Of a DNA stretch of 64,000 nucleotides, positions 1,641 through 61,009 are shown piece by piece (the first letter of the stretch is position 1; the number at the start of each line of letters is the position of its first letter). Source of the DNA: Acidobacteriota bacterium (GTDB lineage Bacteria; Acidobacteriota; Terriglobia; UBA7540). The notes below the pieces were generated by a model, which was not told where the DNA came from, ran no database searches, and saw only the letters and a program-made list of their open reading frames with translations. The stretch is from positions 144,001 through 208,000 of the forward strand of contig JAKCCV010000003.1 in assembly GCA_021838785.1 (NCBI GenBank), written 5' to 3'. The translations under genes and the position numbers were made by a program.

Positions 1641-2981
1641 CTACCCCTCCGATTGCTCTTGCAAAACAGCTTGGCCTGTCTCAGGGGCCTGAGCCGCGGA
1701 TAACTGCGCAGCGTCCATGCGGTCCACGATAAAGCCGGGAAGCACGAACACGAACGGCACGGCCACCAGGGAAACGAGGCCGTTGGCGATCGCCATGGTG
1801 CTCAGGTGCAGATGATAAATGTCCATAATCTTGGCGCCTACCCAATCGCTGCCAAAAAGGGAAAGGTTGCGGACGCTCATCATCAGCGAGAAACCGAGGG
1901 CCTCGCTCCCTGCCGGGGTCGCCCGCATGGCCAGATCCATAATGCTCATGTCCGCCGCGGTCCAACCCAGACCGTAAAAGCTGTCAATGAACCAGGCGCG
2001 ATGGAAGGTGGTGTAAAACGCGTAACCGAATTGCGATAGCGCGCCCACCGCGATGCACACGGCGAGCAGCCAGCGCAGTTTGAAATGGCGGCAGAAGTAC
2101 GTTCCGTAAAGCGTCGCCGCAATCACGGCGAAGACACCTTGCAGGAGCATCAGCACGCCCTGACCTTCCGTGTTGAGGTGCATCACGTTTTGTTGTTGGT
2201 AGAACTCCGCGGTCATGATGCCCGGCGCCCAATAGAAGAGCGCGCTGAAGGCCGCCGCGGTCCACATGGTTTTCGCGTTGGCGATCTTCTTGAGCTGCGC
2301 TCCGGCCTCACTCAGGAGTTTCTTGGAGTCCACCCTCCGGCGGCGCTCGTGAAGAAGCAGGAGCGTGGTCGGAACAACCAGAAACATGGCCGCGCCGCCC
2401 GCCGCCGCCGTCCAACCGAAAGCAATCGCACCCAAGAAACCGCCGAGCGGCCCCGCCACAATGTAAGTGCCTTGGCTCACGAAATTGAAGACGCTTGCAA
2501 GCCGCCCCGTTGCGCCAAAGGCCTGACCCGTCTCCACCATCAAGCCACCGACGGCAGTGCTGGTAAGAACCATGAAAACATTGATCGCAATGCAGATTGT
2601 CAGCAGCCGGTTGTAGGTATGCGGCGTAAAGATGAGCATGACGAAGGCCGCCATGGTGAGCACGGCCCCAATCAGCATGTAGCTCTTGCGGCGCGTGCCC
2701 AGAAATGGAAACGCGTCGGTGATGATTCCGAAAAACGGCTTGAAATACCAAGCGAACTGAACCCAGAAAAAGAACGCAGCCGTGGAGGCCAGATTTTCGT
2801 GAAGGGAGTTCTTTAGCAGGTTTTTCAGTGGGATCAGGCCGAGAACCTGAAATTGGGGAAGGGTCACACCAAACACGCCCACGGCCACCACGATCGCGGC
2901 CACCACCATTCGTTTCTTTTGATTGGCTGAGTTGAGCTCGGCGCTCGATCCTGCTACGGAATGGGCCGTTTCTGTGGCCAA
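1641..2981 (-). CDS. BT1/folate-biopterin-type major facilitator transporter
   Basis: A 446-aa polytopic membrane protein with about 12 hydrophobic segments. The segment WYFKPFFGIITDAFPFLG followed by RRKSYMLIG is close to the KPxxGxxxDxxPxxGxRR(R/K)xY signature of the BT1 (folate-biopterin transporter) branch of the major facilitator superfamily. Known members move folates, pterins or other small molecules, but bacterial substrates are mostly undetermined. The frame begins at a TTG at 2981 with no strong ribosome-binding site; ATG at 2909, just before the first membrane helix, is the alternative. The gene stands alone between the two copies of the palindromic repeat. The family call is good; I make no substrate call. 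Confidence 0.78.
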   Translation of the reverse strand: MATETAHSVAGSSAELNSANQKKRMVVAAIVVAVGVFGVTLPQFQVLGLIPLKNLLKNSLHENLASTAAFFFWVQFAWYFKPFFGIITDAFPFLGTRRKSYMLIGAVLTMAAFVMLIFTPHTYNRLLTICIAINVFMVLTSTAVGGLMVETGQAFGATGRLASVFNFVSQGTYIVAGPLGGFLGAIAFGWTAAAGGAAMFLVVPTTLLLLHERRRRVDSKKLLSEAGAQLKKIANAKTMWTAAAFSALFYWAPGIMTAEFYQQQNVMHLNTEGQGVLMLLQGVFAVIAATLYGTYFCRHFKLRWLLAVCIAVGALSQFGYAFYTTFHRAWFIDSFYGLGWTAADMSIMDLAMRATPAGSEALGFSLMMSVRNLSLFGSDWVGAKIMDIYHLHLSTMAIANGLVSLVAVPFVFVLPGFIVDRMDAAQLSAAQAPETGQAVLQEQSEG

Positions 2982-3591
2982 AGGTTCTCGCTACCCGCGA
3001 CCGCGCTCCCCTGGGTTCAGGACCAGCTCAGGGGTGCGGCTTGCCAACACCTACACCGACATCATACGCAATTCGACGAACCTCCGCCACACGTTCCTGA
3101 ATCGTGCCTGTTTTCCGGCGTGGACATTTCTTCGTAAGCGGAAAGCGGGGGATTTCGCAAACTCAGCCGTTTCTACGAAGTCGGCCAGCAACCGCCACCG
3201 CTCGCAAGACGGCACGACAGTGGCGCCGCGCGGTCAAAGGGATATTGCGTGGCAAAGCCAATCGGCCAAAAAGCGGGTAGCTGCGACCCTGGTTTGCGTG
3301 TCGCGGGCTCTTCCGCAGCGCTTCCGGACGAACCCGCGACGGAAACCGCACCGTCGCAGCTACCTGCTATCCTTTCTTAATTATCCTGAAAGGAACCGCA
3401 GAGTTGGAAACCCCCAACCTCTCTGCTGCGTTGCTGGAGCGAAAGTTGACCAACCCGCCGTAATTCCGATTCCCGCCGAGATTGTGGCACGGCCATCCTG
3501 GCCGTGTTCAGGCACGGGCGAGGCTCCCGGGCCGCGTCGCGGCATGGTCAAGAAGCGTTAGGCGCACAACATCACGGTGGGTTTAGTTCGG
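2982..3591. other. intergenic region holding palindromic repeat copy 2
   Basis: This 610-base gap lies between the transporter start and the end of lysA. Frames that cross it show no protein-like composition or ribosome-binding site. It contains repeat copy 2 (3276-3364) and a perfect 8-bp hairpin at 3488-3506 (CACGGCCA-TCC-TGGCCGTG) with no T-run, which may be a separate REP-like unit or a weak transcription stop for lysA. The transporter promoter is presumably in the left part; I could not identify it. Confidence 0.45.
3276..3364. repeat. 89-nt palindromic repeat, copy 2
   Basis: The outer arms GGTAGCTGCGAC (3276-3287) and GTCGCAGCTACC (3353-3364) are exact reverse complements. The inner stem is GTCGCGGG (3300-3307) with CCCGCGAC (3333-3340). 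Length and spacing equal copy 1 at 1480. The sixth outer-stem base is T here and C in copy 1, and its partner changes in step (A for G), so base pairing is kept. Confidence 0.75.
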
Positions 3592-4833
3592 CTAAGGGGT
3601 TTCGCCGGTCATGAGGTCGTCAAGGCGTTCCCGAGCGCGGATCAACTGCGCTTGGAAGCCGCTGACGAGGATTTCGGCGGGGCGTGGGCGGGAATTGTAA
3701 TTGGAGGAGAGGACAAAGCCGTAGGCGCCGGCGGTCAAGACGGCGAGGAGGTCGCCGGGTTCAGGTGGCGGAAGCCGGCGGTCACGAGCCAAAAAATCGC
3801 CGGTTTCGCAGAGCGGACCGACAACGTCCGCCGGCTCGGCGGGGTGGGAACGCGGCGCCACGGGCCAAACCTGATGCTCGGAGCCGTAGAGGGCGGGTCG
3901 CAGCAAATCATTCATGCCGGCATCCACGATGATGAAGTTCTTTTGGCGGGTGCGCTTAAGGTAGAGCACGCGCGTCAGCAAGAGTCCCGCGTCGCCGACG
4001 ATGGTGCGGCCCGGTTCCACAATCAAACGGTAGGGCGAGTGGGCCAGTTGATGGTGGATGCGGCTCGTCAGGCCATCCCAATCGAGCGGCGCTTCGGCCT
4101 GATAACGAATGCCGTAACCGCCGCCCAAATCCAGCCACTCGAGGCCAATACCCTCGGCGCGAAGGCGGGTGGCAATTTCCAAAATCTCCTCGAGCGCCTT
4201 CAGAAACGGCTCAGCCTGGAGAATCTGCGACCCGATGTGGCAGGCGATGCCGCGCACGCGAAGATGGGGGGAGGCGACGGCGCGGCGATAGAGCGCCAGG
4301 GCCGAGTCCTTGGGCACGCCGAATTTGTGGATGAAGCGGCCGGTGGAGATGTAAGGGTGCGTTTCCGCTTCCACGTCGGGGTTGATGCGCAGGGCGATGG
4401 GTGCCGTGCGGCCGAGGGCGGCGGCGCGCTGCTCGATGACGTGCAACTCGCCGTCGGATTCAACATTGAACATCAACAGGCCGGCGGCCAGCGCGGCGTC
4501 AATCTCCTCGACGGTCTTGCCCACGCCGGAAAAGACGACGCGGTCCATCGCGGCTCCCACGCGACCCACGCGAGCCAACTCGCCGCCGGAAACAATGTCA
4601 AAACCCGCGCCCGCTTCGCGCAAGAGGCTAAGGATCTTGAGATTGGAATTCGCTTTGACGGAATAGCAAATGAGATGCGGCGTGCCGGCCAGGCCGCGCG
4701 CGATGCGGGCGTAGTTTTCCAAAATGGCGGCGCGACTATAGACGTAGGCGGGCGTGCCGTAACGCTCGGCGAGCGTGCGAAGCGGCACGTCCTCGGCGCA
4801 AAGCTGATTCTCACGGTAAGTGAAAGCTTCCAT
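3592..4833 (-). CDS. lysA: diaminopimelate decarboxylase
   Basis: LysA removes CO2 from meso-diaminopimelate to give L-lysine, the last step of lysine synthesis, using pyridoxal phosphate. The 413-aa protein from ATG 4833 (MEAFTYRENQLCAEDVPL) has the usual family length. The PLP-lysine motif CYSVKANSN is near residue 60, followed by ACHIGSQI, the glycine-rich phosphate-binding LDLGGGYGIRY, EPGRTIVGDAG and the C-terminal GAYGFVLSSNYNSRPRP. A longer frame to 4932 exists, but its extra 33 residues do not look conserved. It lies 111 nt downstream of the GAF-phosphatase gene on the same strand and may be cotranscribed with it. No lysine riboswitch was seen. Confidence 0.95.
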   Translation of the reverse strand: MEAFTYRENQLCAEDVPLRTLAERYGTPAYVYSRAAILENYARIARGLAGTPHLICYSVKANSNLKILSLLREAGAGFDIVSGGELARVGRVGAAMDRVVFSGVGKTVEEIDAALAAGLLMFNVESDGELHVIEQRAAALGRTAPIALRINPDVEAETHPYISTGRFIHKFGVPKDSALALYRRAVASPHLRVRGIACHIGSQILQAEPFLKALEEILEIATRLRAEGIGLEWLDLGGGYGIRYQAEAPLDWDGLTSRIHHQLAHSPYRLIVEPGRTIVGDAGLLLTRVLYLKRTRQKNFIIVDAGMNDLLRPALYGSEHQVWPVAPRSHPAEPADVVGPLCETGDFLARDRRLPPPEPGDLLAVLTAGAYGFVLSSNYNSRPRPAEILVSGFQAQLIRARERLDDLMTGETP

Positions 4834-17464: not shown

Positions 17465-20005
17465 GTGGATTCGGAAGACCAAAAAGTTGATGAACTCCTC
17501 AAGGCTCGCGCCGCGCTCGACGAGGAATTGCGGCGATACAAGGCGACCGTCACGGTGATGTTTACCGACGTGGTGGGCTCGACGTCTTACTTTGAGCGTT
17601 ACGGCGACACAGCAGGGTTGGCAATGCTGGGCCGCCACGCTCAGGCCGTGACGGAAGGGGTGATGAATCACCGTGGCCGCGTCATCAAGAACATCGGCGA
17701 TTCCGTCATGGCGGAGTTCCCGGATCCGTTATCGGCCGCAGAAGCCGGGGTTGAGATTCAGCGCCACCTGCTCCAACTAAATGCCAGCCTGCCCGAACGC
17801 GAGCGCATCCAGGTGAGGATCGGCATTAACTCCGGTCCCGGCTTTCGCCGGGGCAATGATCTGTTTGGTGATGTCGTCAATGTGGCGGCGCGCATTACCA
17901 AGCACTGCAGCCCGGCGCAGATTTTGGTTTCTCATTCGATTTTTCAGGCGCTAAACAGACAAAGCCCCCTGCGCTTTAAGTCCTTGGGTTCGCAGGCGTT
18001 CCACGGCAAAGAGGAAAAAGAAGAAATCTTTGAGATGCTGTGGACCGACACGCAAACCTACACGGCGCTGCGACAAAAAGTAGATGAAGCCGTGGCGCAA
18101 GGCTACTTGACTTATTCTTCAAAGCCGCTGGACACCATGGTGGGCGCAGCGTCGCCTCAAACCCCGCCACCCGTTTCCGTCTCCGCACCCGGCCCGACCA
18201 CCCCTCTACCCGCTTCGCTAGCTTCGCGCTACGCGATTTTGGGCGAGGCCGGACGCGGCGGCATGGGGGTGGTTTACAAAGCGCACGATCTCGAAACGGG
18301 GGAAGTGGTGGCGCTGAAGGTTCTGAAGCCGGAAATCGCCTCCAACCCCGCCGTGCTGGAGCGGTTCAAAAATGAGGTGCGACTGGCGCGAAAGATCACG
18401 CATCGGAACGTCTGCCGCACCTACGAATTTGGGCGCGCCGACGCGGTCGCCTACATCTCGATGGAATACGTGGACGGAGAGAGTTTGCGCGCCGTGCTCA
18501 ACCGCTTTGGGGGGTTGCCGCCGGCGAAGACCTTCGCGGTGGCCCGTGAAATCTGCGCCGGACTCGCCGAGGCCCATCAACAGGGCGTCATTCACCGCGA
18601 CCTGAAGCCGGAAAACGTGATGCTGGACCGCAACGGCCACGTGAAGCTGATGGACTTCGGCATCGCTCGCTCGCTCGAAATCTCCAGTGGGACCACCGGC
18701 TCCATCATCGGCACGCCGGAGTACATGGCGCCCGAACAGGCGCAGGGCCAGGCCGTGGATGCGCGGACGGATGTTTATGCGCTGGGGCTGATTCTTTACG
18801 AGTGCTTGACCGGCTCGCCCGCTTTTAGCGGAGAAACACCTATTGCAGTGGCGCTCAAGCAGGTGCGCGAGCCGCCTCCTCGGCCGAGCGCCACCACTCC
18901 GACCATTCCGCCGGCTACCGAGCAGATGATTCTGCGGTGCCTTGAAAAAGACCCGGCTCGGCGCTTCCAATCGGTCGCAGAATTGGACGCCGCGCTCGGC
19001 CAAGCGATGCCCGCCAAGACCACAGCCGTGCCCCCTGGCGCGGTGGCGGCGGCAGCCGTGCAGAGTGCCACCTTCCCCCAGCCCCGAAGCCGAATAAAAG
19101 TGTGGCTGGTTGCGGGAGTGATTCCGCTGGTGATTCAAGGAGGGTTTCTATGGGCCGTGTGGCAGGCCGCGCGCTTGGCGCACGCGCGGCTCGCCTCGCC
19201 GCCAGTGAGCAGCGCCATGCCATTGAGCATTCCCACGCCTTCCAACGCGATACCCGCTCCGGCTGCGTTGAAAGTGATGACCCAGAAGCCGACTCAGAAC
19301 CCCCTCAAAGCCGTCACGAAACCGGCCGCGGCTCCCTCCGCCGCGAGATCAGGACAAACGGCCGCAACCCAACCTGCCGTGGCCACGACTAACGTATCCC
19401 CGGTTGCTTCACCTCAACCTGAACTACGGGTATCCCACTCCGCTGTGGCGACAGCGCCGTCGGCCCAGCAAAACTTCATTCCCAACTTTCAAGCCCCCAT
19501 GGCGCCGCCCGCGAATGCCCGGCCACAGGTTATCTACTTGGTCGCGGGCAGATATTCCCGGCCCTTCGGCGCGAATCTTGCCATGCAGCGGCTTTGGCGA
19601 CTGGGCGTGGCGAGTGTGCGCATTCAACCTCTGCGGCAACCCTTGAAGTACATGGTGTTTGTCGGACCCTTTGGCGATTTCCAGCAGGCTCAAGGAACTG
19701 CCGCTCGGCTGAGGAAATTAGGGATGGCCCAAGTCGGCATCATTCGGCAAAACACGGGCTTCGGCATGCCGCCGAGCCTACTGGTCTCGGCCGGACAATA
19801 CCCCGGGCCATATCTGGCTCGGTCAGCGGCCCAACGGCTCTGGCGCAGCGGGGTGAGGAACATCCACATTCGCCCGCTGGGCAGCCGAGTGACAGGGTAC
19901 GCTGTGTTGGTGGGACCGTTCCACAACCCCGGTCAAGCTAATGCGATGCAAGCGCGGCTGCGCAACGAAGGCTTCCCGGATATCGCCCGCTTCGGCAAGC
20001 ACTAA
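17465..20005 (+). CDS. class III nucleotide cyclase / Ser-Thr kinase / SPOR fusion protein
   Basis: An 846-aa protein that joins three modules. Residues about 25-195 are a class III adenylate/guanylate cyclase: the metal-binding aspartates are in MFTDVVGST and NIGDSVMAEF, and GDVVNVAARI carries the catalytic Asn and Arg, so it looks active. Residues about 255-515 are a Hanks-type kinase: GEAGRGGMGVVYKA, the ATP lysine in VALKVLKPE, VIHRDLKPENVML, LMDFGIARS and GTPEYMAPEQ. One membrane helix (VWLVAGVIPLVIQGGFLWAV) follows near 545. After an Ala/Pro/Thr-rich linker come two SPOR-like repeats (YLVAGRYSRPFGANLAMQRL..., LLVSAGQYPGPYLARSAAQRL...), presumably in the periplasm, where SPOR domains bind denuded peptidoglycan glycans. 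GTG start follows a TATAAT by 32 nt. This is a plausible wall-sensing receptor with two cytoplasmic outputs. Confidence 0.88.
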   Translation: MDSEDQKVDELLKARAALDEELRRYKATVTVMFTDVVGSTSYFERYGDTAGLAMLGRHAQAVTEGVMNHRGRVIKNIGDSVMAEFPDPLSAAEAGVEIQRHLLQLNASLPERERIQVRIGINSGPGFRRGNDLFGDVVNVAARITKHCSPAQILVSHSIFQALNRQSPLRFKSLGSQAFHGKEEKEEIFEMLWTDTQTYTALRQKVDEAVAQGYLTYSSKPLDTMVGAASPQTPPPVSVSAPGPTTPLPASLASRYAILGEAGRGGMGVVYKAHDLETGEVVALKVLKPEIASNPAVLERFKNEVRLARKITHRNVCRTYEFGRADAVAYISMEYVDGESLRAVLNRFGGLPPAKTFAVAREICAGLAEAHQQGVIHRDLKPENVMLDRNGHVKLMDFGIARSLEISSGTTGSIIGTPEYMAPEQAQGQAVDARTDVYALGLILYECLTGSPAFSGETPIAVALKQVREPPPRPSATTPTIPPATEQMILRCLEKDPARRFQSVAELDAALGQAMPAKTTAVPPGAVAAAAVQSATFPQPRSRIKVWLVAGVIPLVIQGGFLWAVWQAARLAHARLASPPVSSAMPLSIPTPSNAIPAPAALKVMTQKPTQNPLKAVTKPAAAPSAARSGQTAATQPAVATTNVSPVASPQPELRVSHSAVATAPSAQQNFIPNFQAPMAPPANARPQVIYLVAGRYSRPFGANLAMQRLWRLGVASVRIQPLRQPLKYMVFVGPFGDFQQAQGTAARLRKLGMAQVGIIRQNTGFGMPPSLLVSAGQYPGPYLARSAAQRLWRSGVRNIHIRPLGSRVTGYAVLVGPFHNPGQANAMQARLRNEGFPDIARFGKH

Positions 20006-20430: not shown

Positions 20431-21657
20431 CTACTCCGCGCCAGGGTGGGACGAAGACGGCAGGGGCTGAGATGTTTCCGTGCCGCTCGAGAGGCTCTCA
20501 GGCCGCGGCAACACCCACCGCAAGAGCGGCGGCGCGACGATGGTGGTGACAATGCTCATCGTTAGCACGACGGCGTACAAATTCTGAGAGATTGTGTGCA
20601 GCGTCAAGCCGACGCCGGCCACAATCAACCCCACCTCGCCGCGCGGAATCATGCCGATGCCCACACGGCAAGCCTCTTTGAACCCCAAATGCAGCGATCC
20701 CAATCCGCAGCCAATCAGCTTGCCGACGATGGCGAGCAGGCAAATCATGGCGGTCAGAGCCAAGATGCCGCCGCGCGCAAAGCTCTGAAGATGGACCTGC
20801 ACGCCGAGCAGGACAAAGAAGAAGGGAGACAAAAAATCGCTTAAGGGGCGGAAATTCTGTCTCAATTGCCACTTCCCGCTCTGGTCGGCCAGCGCCAGGC
20901 CCGCCATGAAGGCGCCGACAATCGCGGCCATGCCGATCTTCATCGAGGCCAAGGAAAGCCCAAGGCATGCCATCACGCCCAGCGCAAATGCGGAGTCCCG
21001 GGCGCGGAGCTTGGCGATGTGCGGGTCCATCCGTGAGACGACGCGCGAGGCCAAGAAAATCATGACCAAGGTGAAGGCCAGCGCCTCAAGTCCCACCACC
21101 AGCAACTGGCCATAGTGAACTTGGCCGGAGGACATGGAGCTGACGACCGCCAGCACCAGCAATCCCAAGATGTCGTCCATCACGGCCGCCCCCAAAATCA
21201 CGCGGGCGGCACGGGTGGAAAGCGCGTCCAGATCGGCCAGGACCCGAGCCGTAATGCCGACGCTAGTGGCCACCATCGCCGCGCCGACAAAAATGGATTC
21301 CACCCAACTGCGGCCGGCTGCTCGAAGAAAAAGAAAACCTAGCACGAAGGGGAAAATGACGCCCAAGGTCGCCACTTCGGCGGCCGTCCAGCCCACGGCG
21401 CGCAAATCCTGCGGCGTGATTTCCAGGCCAATGGCGAAGAGCAAGAAAATCGCGCCGACCTCCGCCAGGCCAATGGTCCATTCGCTGGGCCTGACAAGCC
21501 CAAGCACTGATGGGCCGAGAATCACGCCGCTCGCTAGCTCACCGAGAACGCCGGGTTGGTGGAGACGCTCCAGAATCTCCGCGCCGAGCTTGCCGCCCGC
21601 GAACATCACGAACATCACAAAAAGCAAATGCCCGGCGTTTTCCACCTTTGACCCCAT
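20431..21657 (-). CDS. Kef/CPA2-type cation:proton antiporter
   Basis: A 408-aa integral membrane protein with about 12 helices and no cytoplasmic nucleotide-binding domain. Features of the CPA2 Na+/H+ exchanger fold include PGVLGELASGVILGPSVLGLV after the first helix, EVGAIFLLFAIGLEI, FVGAAMVATSVGITARVLADL, GAAVMDDILGLLVLAVVSS with the paired aspartates expected at the ion site, and IGMIPRGEVGLIVAGVGL. The lack of TrkA-N and TrkA-C domains separates it from KefB/KefC. It exchanges Na+ or K+ for protons; which ion is not clear. ATG 21657 (MGSKVENAGHLLF) is used because the 49 residues upstream do not resemble the family. Confidence 0.88.
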   Translation of the reverse strand: MGSKVENAGHLLFVMFVMFAGGKLGAEILERLHQPGVLGELASGVILGPSVLGLVRPSEWTIGLAEVGAIFLLFAIGLEITPQDLRAVGWTAAEVATLGVIFPFVLGFLFLRAAGRSWVESIFVGAAMVATSVGITARVLADLDALSTRAARVILGAAVMDDILGLLVLAVVSSMSSGQVHYGQLLVVGLEALAFTLVMIFLASRVVSRMDPHIAKLRARDSAFALGVMACLGLSLASMKIGMAAIVGAFMAGLALADQSGKWQLRQNFRPLSDFLSPFFFVLLGVQVHLQSFARGGILALTAMICLLAIVGKLIGCGLGSLHLGFKEACRVGIGMIPRGEVGLIVAGVGLTLHTISQNLYAVVLTMSIVTTIVAPPLLRWVLPRPESLSSGTETSQPLPSSSHPGAE

Positions 21658-21827
21658 CCGGTTGAATTTTTCATCGGCCCCTGACGCCGGCGGAAATCCT
21701 TCCCCAGGGTAACAAAAGAGGCGATGTCTCGGCCAGGGTAAATGGAGGTGACTGAATAGACGAAGGGGATTTCGCGCATTGGCTCGAAAAACGATTACAC
21801 CCAAGCGCGGCGGCGGAGGCCAAAGGG

Positions 21828-56413: not shown

Positions 56414-58123
56414 ATGAGATTCATCTTCCAGATTGCGGTGTGCCTCGCCGTAGGGCTTGCCTTCCCTCGGCTCGGCGTGGCGCAGCAGACGGCCGGTCAG
56501 ATCGCTTGCGCCGCTTGTCACAGCGATAAGGCCCAGCAACTCAAGAGTTCTGCGCACGCTTCCCTGGCCTGCACCACCTGTCATGTGGGGATCAAGGGTT
56601 TCCCGCATCCCAAGCACGTCTCGCTTCCCAAGTGCGCGGAATGTCACGCCAAGCAGGAGAGCGAATGGTCCAAAAGCGTCCACGGACAGGCTTGGGCCAA
56701 AGGAAATAAAACGGCTCCAACCTGCCAGACCTGCCACGGCAGCGCGCATACGGTCCCCCGAACCCACACCTGGACCTTCAAAAAATCCATTCCCCCGCTG
56801 TGCGGCAGTTGTCACGCTCAGGTTCTTCAACACTATCAGGAGAGCATTCACGGGCAAGCTCTGGCTCGGGGTGTGGTGGATGTTCCGGTCTGCACCACGT
56901 GCCACCACGCTCATTTGATTCTGGCCCCCGGCAACCCGCATTCGAGCGTTTATCCGACCCACATTCCGGAGACCTGCGGACAGTGCCACGGCAACGTTCG
57001 GCTATCCCGCGAATATGGTTTGCCCACCAATCGCCTGCTGACCTACGATGCGTCGTTCCACGGCATGATGTCCAAAGAAGGCTCTATCACCGTTGCCAAC
57101 TGCGCAAGCTGCCACGGGGTGCACCTGATTCTTCCTTCTTCCGACCCGCGTTCCTCCATCAATCCGAAGAATTTGCCGAAGACCTGCGGCAAGTGCCATC
57201 CCGGCGCCGGAACCACGTTTGCGATTGGCCCCGTCCATGAGATGCCGGGCGCGGGCAAGGGAACCGTGTCCAAAGCCATCGTTTGGGTTCGATGGTTTTA
57301 TCTCATCATCATTCCACTGACGATTGGACTGATGTTCCTTCACAACTTGGGAGATTGGCTACATAAACTGGGCAGAATTCGGCTCCATCCTCCTGAATCC
57401 CCGCGATTGAATCCCGAGGCGGGAAACGAGGGAACGCAAATTCGGATGTACCGCTTTGAGCGCATCGAGCATGGTCTGCTACTCATCTCGTTTCTGGTGC
57501 TGGCGTGGACGGGATTCGCCTTAAAGTATCCGGCGGCTTGGTGGGCTCAACCTTTGCTGATGTGGGAATCATCCGGGCTGCCACTGCGCGGAATCATCCA
57601 CCGGATCGCCGCCGTCGTCTTTATGGCGGTGGCCGGCATGCACGTTGTCTCCTTACTGCGAAGCGAGCGGCTGCGGCGCCATTGGCGCAGTTTGTGGCCG
57701 ACCGTGGACGATCTGCGCCAGGCGTTTCAAGGCTTGGCTTACAACCTGGGATTGCGCGCCGAGCCGCCTTTGCTTCCCGAACACGGCTATGTCGAGAAGA
57801 TTGAATATTGGGCCATGGTTTGGGGAACCGCCATCATGACGCTCACAGGGCTGATGCTCTGGGGACACAACCTGATTCTGAGGTGGCTGCCCAAAGTCTT
57901 CCTCGACTTGGCCTCGACGATCCATTTTTATGAGGCGGTCTTGGCTGCGCTGGCCATTTTAGTGTGGCATTTTTATGGCGTCATCTTCGATCCCGAGGTT
58001 TACCCCATGGATACCGCTTGGTTGACGGGGCGCAGCCCAAGGCGGCGGCATGCCGCGCCCGTTGAACAACCCAAACCCGCCGACCCCACCAACCCGCCGA
58101 AGGAGGAAAAAACCGAACGATGA
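56414..58123 (+). CDS. CbcL-like nonaheme cytochrome c fused to a b-type membrane domain
   Basis: A 569-aa fusion. After a signal peptide (RFIFQIAVCLAVGLAFPRLGVA) the first 270 residues carry nine CxxCH sites: CAACH, CTTCH, CAECH, CQTCH, CGSCH, CTTCH, CGQCH, CASCH and CGKCH. The rest has about five membrane helices (WFYLIIIPLTIGLMFLHNLG, HGLLLISFLVLAWTGFALKY, IIHRIAAVVFMAVAGMHVVS, YWAMVWGTAIMTLTGLMLWG, YEAVLAALAILVWHFYGVIF) with histidines placed as in cytochrome b561/HydB-type domains. The order and the haem count of nine match Geobacter CbcL, an inner-membrane quinol oxidase for extracellular electron transfer. It overlaps the next gene by 4 nt. ATG 56414 is chosen; a longer frame from 56330 lacks a signal peptide. 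Confidence 0.88.
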   Translation: MRFIFQIAVCLAVGLAFPRLGVAQQTAGQIACAACHSDKAQQLKSSAHASLACTTCHVGIKGFPHPKHVSLPKCAECHAKQESEWSKSVHGQAWAKGNKTAPTCQTCHGSAHTVPRTHTWTFKKSIPPLCGSCHAQVLQHYQESIHGQALARGVVDVPVCTTCHHAHLILAPGNPHSSVYPTHIPETCGQCHGNVRLSREYGLPTNRLLTYDASFHGMMSKEGSITVANCASCHGVHLILPSSDPRSSINPKNLPKTCGKCHPGAGTTFAIGPVHEMPGAGKGTVSKAIVWVRWFYLIIIPLTIGLMFLHNLGDWLHKLGRIRLHPPESPRLNPEAGNEGTQIRMYRFERIEHGLLLISFLVLAWTGFALKYPAAWWAQPLLMWESSGLPLRGIIHRIAAVVFMAVAGMHVVSLLRSERLRRHWRSLWPTVDDLRQAFQGLAYNLGLRAEPPLLPEHGYVEKIEYWAMVWGTAIMTLTGLMLWGHNLILRWLPKVFLDLASTIHFYEAVLAALAILVWHFYGVIFDPEVYPMDTAWLTGRSPRRRHAAPVEQPKPADPTNPPKEEKTER

Positions 58124-59586
58124 GCACAAACGGCCGAAGGTGGAGGGATATCCTTTCCCCTTATGTCTATCTTTCTAGCAACTGGGTAAGCCGCATCGGG
58201 GTGGTTCTTGTGACCACGGCTTTTATCCTCTGGCTCTACCTGTTGCCCACCTTTATTCGCGGTGAAGTGACCCACCCCTATGCCGGAATCCTCATCTTCT
58301 TGGTCTTGCCGGCAGCCTTCGTTTTGGGTCTTCTGCTCATTCCCCTCGGAATCCTGCTGCGAACTCGCCGCGAGCGCAAACGCGGGGTTTATCCGACGCA
58401 TTTCGTGCGCCTGGACTTCCAAAATCCTGACTTTCGGCGTCTCCTAATGTTTATTGGCGTGGTAACGATCGTCAACGTTGTCGTGGGCAGCCAACTCGTC
58501 TATAGCGGGATCAATTATATGGACACCGTGACCTTCTGTGGCGAGACGTGCCACACTGTCATGCAGCCGGAATACACCGCTTATCTTCATTCGCCTCACG
58601 CCCGCGTCGCCTGTGTGCAATGCCATATTGGGCCTGGCGCGTCGTGGTTTGTGCGCAGCAAGCTGTCGGGCATCCACCAGGTCTTTGCCGTCCTGTTCAA
58701 TACCTACCCGCGACCCATTCCAAGTCCGGTCACGAGCCTTCGCCCCGCCCGGGCGACGTGCGAGCAATGCCATTGGCCGGCGCGATTTGAAGGAAATCGG
58801 CTGGTGGTCATTCCTCGGTACGCCGAGGATCAAACCAACACGCTGGCGTACACTGTGTTGCTGATGCACATTGGCGGCGGAGACGGCAACGAAGGGATTC
58901 ACGGCGCGCACGTCGGTCCCGGCGTGACCATCCGTTACGGCTCGGACGCCAGTCGCCAGAAAATGTACTGGGTGGAATATCAAAACTCGCGCACCGGCAA
59001 AAAAGCGCTCTTCGTGGCTCCCGGCGTCAATCCCCAAACCGTGAATCCTCAAAAGGGCCGGGTGATGGATTGTATTGATTGTCACAACCGCCCCACGCAC
59101 ATCTTCTACATGCCGGGCCAAGCGATGAATCGGGCGATGGCTGCCGGCAAGATTTCTCCCTCTCTTCCGTTTGTCAAGAAGGAAGGGGTCGAGCTCCTCA
59201 AGCAGAATTACTCCAGCCGAGCGGAAGCTGCCCACCTGATTCCGCAAGAATTCACAGCCTATTATCGGGCCAACTTTCCCACCGTTGCGACCCAAAACGC
59301 CGCGGAAATAGCCGCGGCCGGCAAAGCCTTGGTCTCCATCTATCGGCGGAATGTTTTTCCCAAAATGCGCGTGACCTGGGGGACCTATCCCAACAATCTC
59401 GGGCACAAATATTTTCCGGGCTGCTTCCGTTGCCACGGCCAGCTCCACAACAGCGTGGTGACTTATCAGAAGATTCCTAAACACTGCGGCATGTGCCATG
59501 CAGTTCTGGCTCAGGACGAGGCGCACCCGAAGATTCTTGACGAATTACAACTCGACGATCCTTCTTCGATGCCATCGGGGCAGTAG
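58120..59586 (+). CDS. NapC/NirT-like membrane-anchored multiheme cytochrome c
   Basis: A 488-aa protein with three N-terminal hydrophobic segments (VLVTTAFILWLYLLPTFI, ILIFLVLPAAFVLGLLLIPLG, LMFIGVVTIVNVVVGSQLVY) and a periplasmic haem domain. One site is CGETCH, a CxxxCH spacing, and five are CxxCH: CVQCH, CEQCH, CIDCH, CFRCH and CGMCH, six in all. The segment CVQCHIGPGASWFVRSKLSG is typical of NapC/NirT-type quinol dehydrogenases, which take electrons from menaquinol. Geobacter ImcH is a functional analogue. ATGA overlap with the CbcL-like gene implies coupled translation. Two quinol-oxidising proteins in tandem may serve different redox potentials. Confidence 0.9.
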   Translation: MSTNGRRWRDILSPYVYLSSNWVSRIGVVLVTTAFILWLYLLPTFIRGEVTHPYAGILIFLVLPAAFVLGLLLIPLGILLRTRRERKRGVYPTHFVRLDFQNPDFRRLLMFIGVVTIVNVVVGSQLVYSGINYMDTVTFCGETCHTVMQPEYTAYLHSPHARVACVQCHIGPGASWFVRSKLSGIHQVFAVLFNTYPRPIPSPVTSLRPARATCEQCHWPARFEGNRLVVIPRYAEDQTNTLAYTVLLMHIGGGDGNEGIHGAHVGPGVTIRYGSDASRQKMYWVEYQNSRTGKKALFVAPGVNPQTVNPQKGRVMDCIDCHNRPTHIFYMPGQAMNRAMAAGKISPSLPFVKKEGVELLKQNYSSRAEAAHLIPQEFTAYYRANFPTVATQNAAEIAAAGKALVSIYRRNVFPKMRVTWGTYPNNLGHKYFPGCFRCHGQLHNSVVTYQKIPKHCGMCHAVLAQDEAHPKILDELQLDDPSSMPSGQ

Positions 59587-59804: not shown

Positions 59805-59820
59805 TGTGACATTGGTCACA
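59805..59820. promoter_or_regulatory. perfect CRP-type operator upstream of the radical SAM gene
   Basis: TGTGA-CATTGG-TCACA is an exact match to the CRP consensus arms TGTGA-N6-TCACA, 46 nt before the radical SAM start. It is the best of the three such sites in the window (others at 49970 and 52156). Confidence 0.65.
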
Positions 59821-59866
59821 GTCAAGTCGTCGGCCGTGAGTTGAAATGGGCTTGAGCAGGGAAGTT

Positions 59867-61009
59867 ATGAACCACTTCAGCGACCGGCCGTTCATTGCGA
59901 TTTGGGAAGTGACCCAAGCCTGCGATTTGGTATGCGTCCATTGCCGGGCTTCGGCGCAGACGTGGCGGCATCCGCTCGAACTCAGCACGGCGGAGGGTCA
60001 GCGCCTGATTGATGAGGTCGCTGAGATGCAGATTCCTGTTTTCGTTCTTACGGGCGGCGATCCCCTCCGCCGGCCTGACATCTTTGATTTGGTGGAATAC
60101 GCAGCCGCTCGCGGCGTGCGCATCTCCTTAACGCCCAGTGCGACGCCGCTATTGACCCGGGAGGCCATCGGGCGCCTCAAGGCCCGTGGGCTAGCGCGTT
60201 TGGCGGTGAGCCTCGACGGTTCCCATGCCGCCATCCACGATGAGTTCCGCGGCGTGGCGGGTTCTTACGCGCGCACGCTGGAGGCTATCGGCTGGGCGCA
60301 TGAGGTCGGTCTCCCGGTGCAAATCAACACCACCATCACGCGCCGGAATTTCCATGACTTCGAGGCGCTTGCCGAGAGGATGCGGGCCTTGGACATTGTC
60401 CTCTGGAGCATCTTCTTCCTGGTTCCAACCGGTCGAGGCCGACTAAGCGACCTCATCACGGCGGAGGAATTTGAGCAGCTCTTCGAGAAAATCTATCGCT
60501 TGTCGTCGAACTCACCGTTCGACATCAAAACGACCGAAGCCCAACACTATCGCCGGTATGTTTTGCAGCAAACCGCCCTGGCGCGCCGTCGCCACGGGGT
60601 GCGAAGCGCGGCCCCCTTGACGGCCTCGCCGAGGCGCGAGGATGGAATCGGACGGGCTCCGCGGGGCCTCAATGACGCGAAAGGTTTTGTTTTCATCTCC
60701 CACACCGGGGAGGCCTTTCCGAGCGGCTTTCTTCCTCTCTCCGGAGGGAATATTCGACGTCAGACGTTGGCGGAGATTTATCGCACCTCGCCCTTGTTCA
60801 TCTCCCTGCGAGATTCTTCGCAGTTAAAGGGAAAATGCGGCGAGTGCGAATTTCGAGAAGTGTGCGGAGGGTCGCGGGCCCGGGCTTTTGCTTTGACCGG
60901 AGATCCGCTGGCTGAAGAGCCGTGCTGCGTCTATCAGCCAAAGACCCAACACCCGACGAACCCATCCCGCAGCATTTGCGCCGATGTGGGCGCAGGAGCG
61001 GAAATTTGA
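59867..61009 (+). CDS. radical SAM/SPASM enzyme related to haem-modifying proteins
   Basis: A 380-aa radical SAM protein. The cluster motif is CDLVCVHCRASA (CxxxCxxC) after FIAIWEVTQA, followed by FVLTGGDPLRRPDIF and LAVSLDGSHAAIHDEFRG. The C-terminal SPASM region carries CGECEFREVCGGSRARA and EEPCC for extra Fe-S clusters. The WEVTxACDLxCxHCRA form is shared with AhbC/AhbD/NirJ haem-pathway enzymes and the related BA_1875-type family (TIGR04053). Its place after the cytochrome operon and its CRP-type site suggest a haem- or cytochrome-related job, but peptide maturation cannot be excluded. ATG 59867 follows AGGGAAG; ATG 59846 is the alternative. Confidence 0.82.
   Translation: MNHFSDRPFIAIWEVTQACDLVCVHCRASAQTWRHPLELSTAEGQRLIDEVAEMQIPVFVLTGGDPLRRPDIFDLVEYAAARGVRISLTPSATPLLTREAIGRLKARGLARLAVSLDGSHAAIHDEFRGVAGSYARTLEAIGWAHEVGLPVQINTTITRRNFHDFEALAERMRALDIVLWSIFFLVPTGRGRLSDLITAEEFEQLFEKIYRLSSNSPFDIKTTEAQHYRRYVLQQTALARRRHGVRSAAPLTASPRREDGIGRAPRGLNDAKGFVFISHTGEAFPSGFLPLSGGNIRRQTLAEIYRTSPLFISLRDSSQLKGKCGECEFREVCGGSRARAFALTGDPLAEEPCCVYQPKTQHPTNPSRSICADVGAGAEI

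Follow-up and report, generated by a model that had tools for sequence, protein, structure and literature searches.

The gene at positions 17465..20005 of the forward strand of the window, by which we mean the whole stretch of 64,000 nucleotides that was analysed, begins with a GTG and encodes an 846-residue protein in which a class III adenylyl cyclase, a Hanks-type kinase, a single transmembrane helix, a linker and two SPOR domains follow one another. Its domains, catalytic residues, topology, conservation and recurrence are read from sequence, and so is the loss from its SPOR domains of residues that hold denuded glycan in RlpA. We tentatively propose, while considering it somewhat improbable, that Terriglobia-type Acidobacteriota have a family of receptor kinases with SPOR tails, part of them also equipped with an active adenylyl cyclase, whose SPOR fold would have been repurposed from a septal denuded-glycan anchor to a sensor of a different envelope ligand, issuing cAMP and phosphorylation at once.

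Layout of the protein and its catalytic residues

A Pfam scan of the 846-residue protein places Guanylate_cyc (residues 27-185), Pkinase (257-502) and SPOR each above its gathering cut-off, in agreement with the domains assigned in the preliminary description. The cyclase domain (17543..18019; residues 27-185; Guanylate_cyc E=7.6e-17) is followed by a connector that lies between the Pfam domains and is kept in orthologues (18020..18226; residues 186-254), and then by the Hanks-type Ser/Thr kinase domain (18227..18994; residues 255-510; Pkinase E=1.3e-55). The predicted transmembrane helix (19097..19165; residues ~545-567; hydropathy 1.87 over 19 residues) is the only hydrophobic segment between the kinase and the SPOR domains. 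Beyond it come a predicted extracytoplasmic linker rich in Pro, Ala, Ser and Thr (19166..19528; residues 568-688; 58% PAST; low pLDDT), SPOR domain 1 (19529..19753; residues 689-763) and SPOR domain 2 (19772..19993; residues 770-843), all on the forward strand. With this one helix, cyclase and kinase are predicted to lie on one side of the membrane and the two SPOR domains beyond it, as had been described.

Upstream of the GTG the frame stays open for only three further codons. The genome that contains the window (3.42 Mb, 98% complete, 38 contigs) has leuA as the divergent upstream neighbour and, downstream, a convergent gene for 122 residues without an NCBIfam match; both are present in the orthologous contigs too. 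The cyclase-kinase-SPOR gene stands alone, and its context therefore lends no support to any particular function. Orthologues in two other genomes of the same genus (L038 and L039) keep all parts of the protein at 95% and ~70% identity. A gene for a CPA2-type cation:proton antiporter also lies downstream, at 20431-21804, and is apparently absent from the equivalent place in the orthologous contig of G001 (L039).

Among solved structures, the cyclase domain is nearest to the class III adenylyl cyclase Ma1120 from Mycobacterium avium (4wp9; E=2e-27), and in the alignment to it all six catalytic positions are present: the metal-binding D35 and D79, the adenine-binding K75 and D132, and the transition-state residues N139 and R143. 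The two proteins are alike in their Lys/Asp adenine pair, since the ATP residues K101 and D157 of Ma1120 align with K75 and D132, but differ at the transition-state Asn position, which is Ala in Ma1120 and Asn139 in the window protein. With the adenine pair, the metal Asp pair and the transition-state pair all present, cAMP is the predicted product of the window cyclase. The kinase finds its best solved match in Mycobacterium tuberculosis PknB (E=3e-63), and the alignment to PknB gives a complete catalytic set (K285, E304, D379, K381, N384, D397), with a glycine-rich loop GRGGMG from residue 263 and with the VAIK Lys, alpha-C Glu, HRD Asp and DFG Asp in place; D379 and D397 are retained in 90/90 aligned kinases. 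All six positions of the cyclase and all six of the kinase are kept throughout the window genus, the f14 protein and five f6 SPOR proteins. The loss of a catalytic Asp or Lys had been named beforehand as one observation that would refute the idea, and these residues are all present in the alignments.

A further suggestion, that CRP-type sites elsewhere in the window provide a link to cyclic nucleotides, proved weak. The motif TGTGA-N6-TCACA with at most one mismatch has three matches in the window against 0.93 expected, and since 9 of 100 shuffles reach three we do not count these sites as evidence of a cAMP link. The sole perfect palindrome (59805-59820) stops ~25 bases short of a TIGR04053 radical-SAM gene; genes near it lie at 58120-59586 and 59846-61009, and an NrfH-like cytochrome is encoded upstream of it. 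Its position before a radical-SAM gene beside an NrfH-like cytochrome suggests a site of the nitrogen-oxide Crp/Fnr type rather than a cAMP-CRP site.

SPOR fold and glycan-contact positions

That the C-terminal repeats fold as SPOR domains, as had been supposed, is supported by profile and model alike. Pfam PF05036 matches two stretches (E=7.3e-9; 36.3 bits against a gathering score of 21), and an AlphaFold2 model of the C-terminal 170 residues has two beta-alpha-beta-beta-alpha units at an overall pLDDT of 63. A full-length model built from 3 sequences has the two SPOR units again, at pLDDT ~70-80; pLDDT falls to ~25-40 elsewhere and renders the cyclase and kinase parts unusable, which is no evidence against these domains, as they rest on sequence. 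In VIA-align, modelled SPOR1 is closest to the SPOR domain of RlpA (6i05; Z 11.9, rmsd 1.5 Å over 74 residues), ahead of CwlC (Z 9.9), DedD (7.4), FtsN (6.0) and DamX (5.5). Because these hits cover SPOR1 only, the fold of SPOR2 rests on Pfam, whose best stretch there is 810-838, on its own AlphaFold2 model and on the internal repeat: SPOR2 is a tandem copy of SPOR1, with 29/65 residues identical and a score of 124 against a shuffle maximum of 49. In Foldseek the two-domain model matched the RlpA SPOR domain with probability 1.00, below top rows held by I-DmoI, which we rejected as a spurious two-domain match (TM ~0.2).

RlpA holds denuded glycan through Gln270 and a basic patch that includes Arg309, and FtsN and DamX are reported to require the equivalent residues, Q251 and R285 in the former and Q351 in the latter, in order to localise to the septum (PMC6895207). 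In RlpA numbering, SPOR1 has V at Gln270 and M at Arg309, and SPOR2 has S and A. Indeed, an equivalent of Gln270 or Arg309 occurs in 0/34 kinase-linked SPOR domains from 31 proteins, whereas a control sample of ordinary SPOR proteins from this class, those of the window's own genome among them, shows the Gln in 32/32 and the Arg in 27/32, counts that are not independent because the sequences are related and that come from best-scoring Pfam hits with a bias to canonical members, although the weakest of these (38-40 bits) still carry the Gln. In most f6 proteins the Gln position holds Glu/Asp or Trp, the acidic residues being found in most of those with a cyclase or a cyclase remnant. A Tyr preserves the aromatic character of position F274. 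The genome's own three ordinary SPOR proteins (G000:C13:20081, C7:8927 and C9:286237; L149-L151), one RlpA-like and two membrane-anchored with a linker, have the canonical Gln in all cases. Since Gln and Arg are gone from 34/34 kinase-linked domains, canonical septal binding of denuded glycan appears unlikely, though conceivable for the window SPORs, which are strongly basic (net charge +9 for SPOR1 and +7 for SPOR2), and the earlier assumption that they sense denuded glycan is not borne out.

SPOR-tailed kinases in the class

The 520-residue cyclase-kinase part was searched against 399 genomes of the class, the full frames were then read, and SPOR tails were called with a SPOR profile built in this analysis. 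This yielded 31 SPOR-tailed kinases, in which the cyclase is intact (9), decayed (2) or absent (20). The nine intact proteins come from the window genus, with two SPOR domains each, and from a single f14 genome and five genomes of f6, with one each, so that the combination of intact cyclase, kinase and SPOR recurs in three families. It had been called unfamiliar, and this holds insofar as no description of SPOR-tailed kinases, or of SPOR domains with Acidobacteria, was found in the open-licence literature searched, but its recurrence means that it is not a one-off. In a 396-genome sample of the phylum, the kinase-linked SPOR profile found no such long frame outside the class. A transmembrane segment separates kinase and SPOR in 31/31 proteins, and Pfam recognises the SPOR domain above its cut-off in 6/8 relatives scanned, L123 falling just below it and L120 going unrecognised. 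A SPOR protein of f9 (584-587 residues) was ruled out as a kinase by its sequence ends; by eye it is SpoIID-like.

In the kinase tree the SPOR-tailed kinases fall inside one clade (support 100/98), within which the SPOR label appears at four separate places with a minimum of 5 changes, the deep branches being weakly supported; Gln and Arg are lost in the same direction at every placement. One clade of SPOR kinases includes five proteins with an intact cyclase, two with a decayed one and one that has lost it. The decayed cyclases (L157 of G296 and L161 of G344) have Gly or Ser for the metal-binding Asp79 and have lost Arg143, with an intact kinase and a retained SPOR domain, and in their close relative L165 (G344) the cyclase is lost altogether. 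Family f6 also includes a clade of ~20 cyclase-free Hanks kinases (L120-L140), most of which end in a SPOR-like domain, typically with Trp at the Gln position (WIGRF motif).

Sister kinases, with or without a cyclase, end in WD40 (L116) or TPR and PDZ (L114) domains, and others have tails that by eye are FGE-sulfatase-like (L011, L118, L159, L160). The kinase L158 (G319, 2349-4601) belongs to this clade too, and its outer part, again judged by eye, looks like a metallopeptidase of the M16 type whose zinc motif is inverted. Because sister kinases carry WD40, FGE-sulfatase, TPR and PDZ or peptidase-like tails, the SPOR-tailed kinases are assigned by their domain content to a modular receptor family. 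Swappable outer modules on one kinase clade are typical of sensors, and they offer a natural series in which to study the control of a kinase-cyclase pair by its outside domain.

Proposed mechanism and known systems

Our preferred reading, whose truth we regard as evenly balanced, is that the window protein is a membrane receptor which a ligand clusters, that its outputs are cAMP and phosphorylation, and that its envelope ligand is an altered one. A receptor role is indicated by the architecture, by conservation and by the exchange of modules; the ligand, the clustering, the activity and the coupling we infer. The protein would be a single-pass inner-membrane receptor of the modular acidobacterial kinase family, and outside the membrane its tandem pair of basic SPOR-fold domains probably has an envelope polymer or a partner as its ligand. 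As the contact surface of the pair is altered, recognition of denuded glycan in the manner of RlpA or FtsN is improbable. Ligand binding may cause the protein to cluster or dimerise, which would pair the cytoplasmic cyclase domains and, as in PknB, the kinase N-lobes, and this pairing would activate both outputs, cAMP synthesis and phosphorylation on Ser/Thr, at the same time. The active sites of class III cyclases form at the interface of a dimer, the state in which these enzymes work. PASTA kinases are peptidoglycan receptors activated via ligand-induced dimerisation (PMC6213207), and it is because both kinds of enzyme work as dimers that we propose clustering of both through the SPOR pair. 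The genome encodes four cNMP_binding proteins that could receive cAMP, none of which points to the window protein in particular, and two Amidase_3 proteins, a means of making denuded glycan that is likewise not specific to it. Since the cyclase is absent from 20/31 SPOR-tailed kinases and decayed in 2/31, the cAMP output is dispensable for the kinase-SPOR unit.

It is conceivable that at the septum the SPOR domains do bind denuded glycan generated by amidases, and that division or cell-wall state is reported by cAMP and phosphorylation. The fold itself, with RlpA as its best match, fits such a role, as do the two Amidase_3 and three ordinary SPOR proteins of the genome, the Tyr that retains an aromatic residue at F274 and the strongly basic charge of both domains; moreover, the RlpA contacts are mostly backbone-mediated, and non-homologous residues can build the basic patch (PMC6895207). 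However, the absence of Gln270 and Arg309 equivalents from both window SPORs and the other kinase-linked SPOR domains, together with Glu/Asp at Q270 in most f6 proteins with a cyclase or its remnant, makes this unlikely in our estimation.

Another scenario takes the kinase for the true output, with a cyclase at the N-terminus that is regulatory or a relict and SPOR domains that serve only as a localisation tether. Relatives that have lost the cyclase or carry it in decayed form speak for this, both in the clade with intact, decayed and lost cyclases and in the large SPOR-only kinase clade without any, but none of the six cyclase catalytic positions changes within the window genus, down to ~70% overall identity, in f14 or in the five f6 proteins, and we consider this scenario, too, improbable. 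Finally, these genomes are rich in kinases with many shuffled tails, and the protein could in principle be a random product of domain shuffling, or an assembly artefact, with no defined function. We give this hardly any credence, as conservation already contradicts it: two further genomes keep the full length, at 95% and ~70%, beside the same neighbours, and the combination recurs in three families. If the receptor reading is true, a SPOR fold cannot automatically be read as a binder of denuded glycan, and the loss of Gln and Arg throughout the kinase-linked SPORs makes a sharp, testable prediction.

In FtsN, DamX, DedD and RlpA, as in the window protein, a low-complexity linker leads into a SPOR fold at the C-terminus, and the first three also share a transmembrane anchor with it. 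These four proteins have neither kinase nor cyclase, and Q270, present in all four, and R309, present in FtsN and RlpA, are both missing from the window SPORs. Fusions of cyclase and kinase, for their part, are already known. Myxococcus xanthus Pkn2 likewise combines a Hanks kinase, a class III cyclase-like domain and a single transmembrane segment, but in the order kinase-cyclase-membrane, with Glu/Thr rather than Lys/Asp as specificity residues and with an outer part of about 200 residues without a known domain and without SPOR (Krupa & Srinivasan 2005, PMC1262709). The TOMM system kinase/cyclase fusion (TIGR03903) also joins the two enzymes, yet its model places the kinase first, and the window protein, scoring 163 against a cut-off of 705.75 through its kinase part only, is not a member. 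Outer domains of the WD40, TPR or FGE type have been described on kinases as well (PMC11032199). A further comparison is with the PASTA kinases (PknB/PrkC/StkP), which are likewise single-pass Hanks kinases with repeated extracytoplasmic domains of an envelope-binding type. The window protein is not itself a PASTA kinase (NF033483 scores 338 against a cut-off of 450, on the kinase only, and Pfam PASTA is absent): it has SPOR where they have PASTA, and a cyclase is added. If our proposal is true, Gram-negative bacteria would have an equivalent of the PASTA kinases in which SPOR-fold domains read the envelope and two messengers carry the response.
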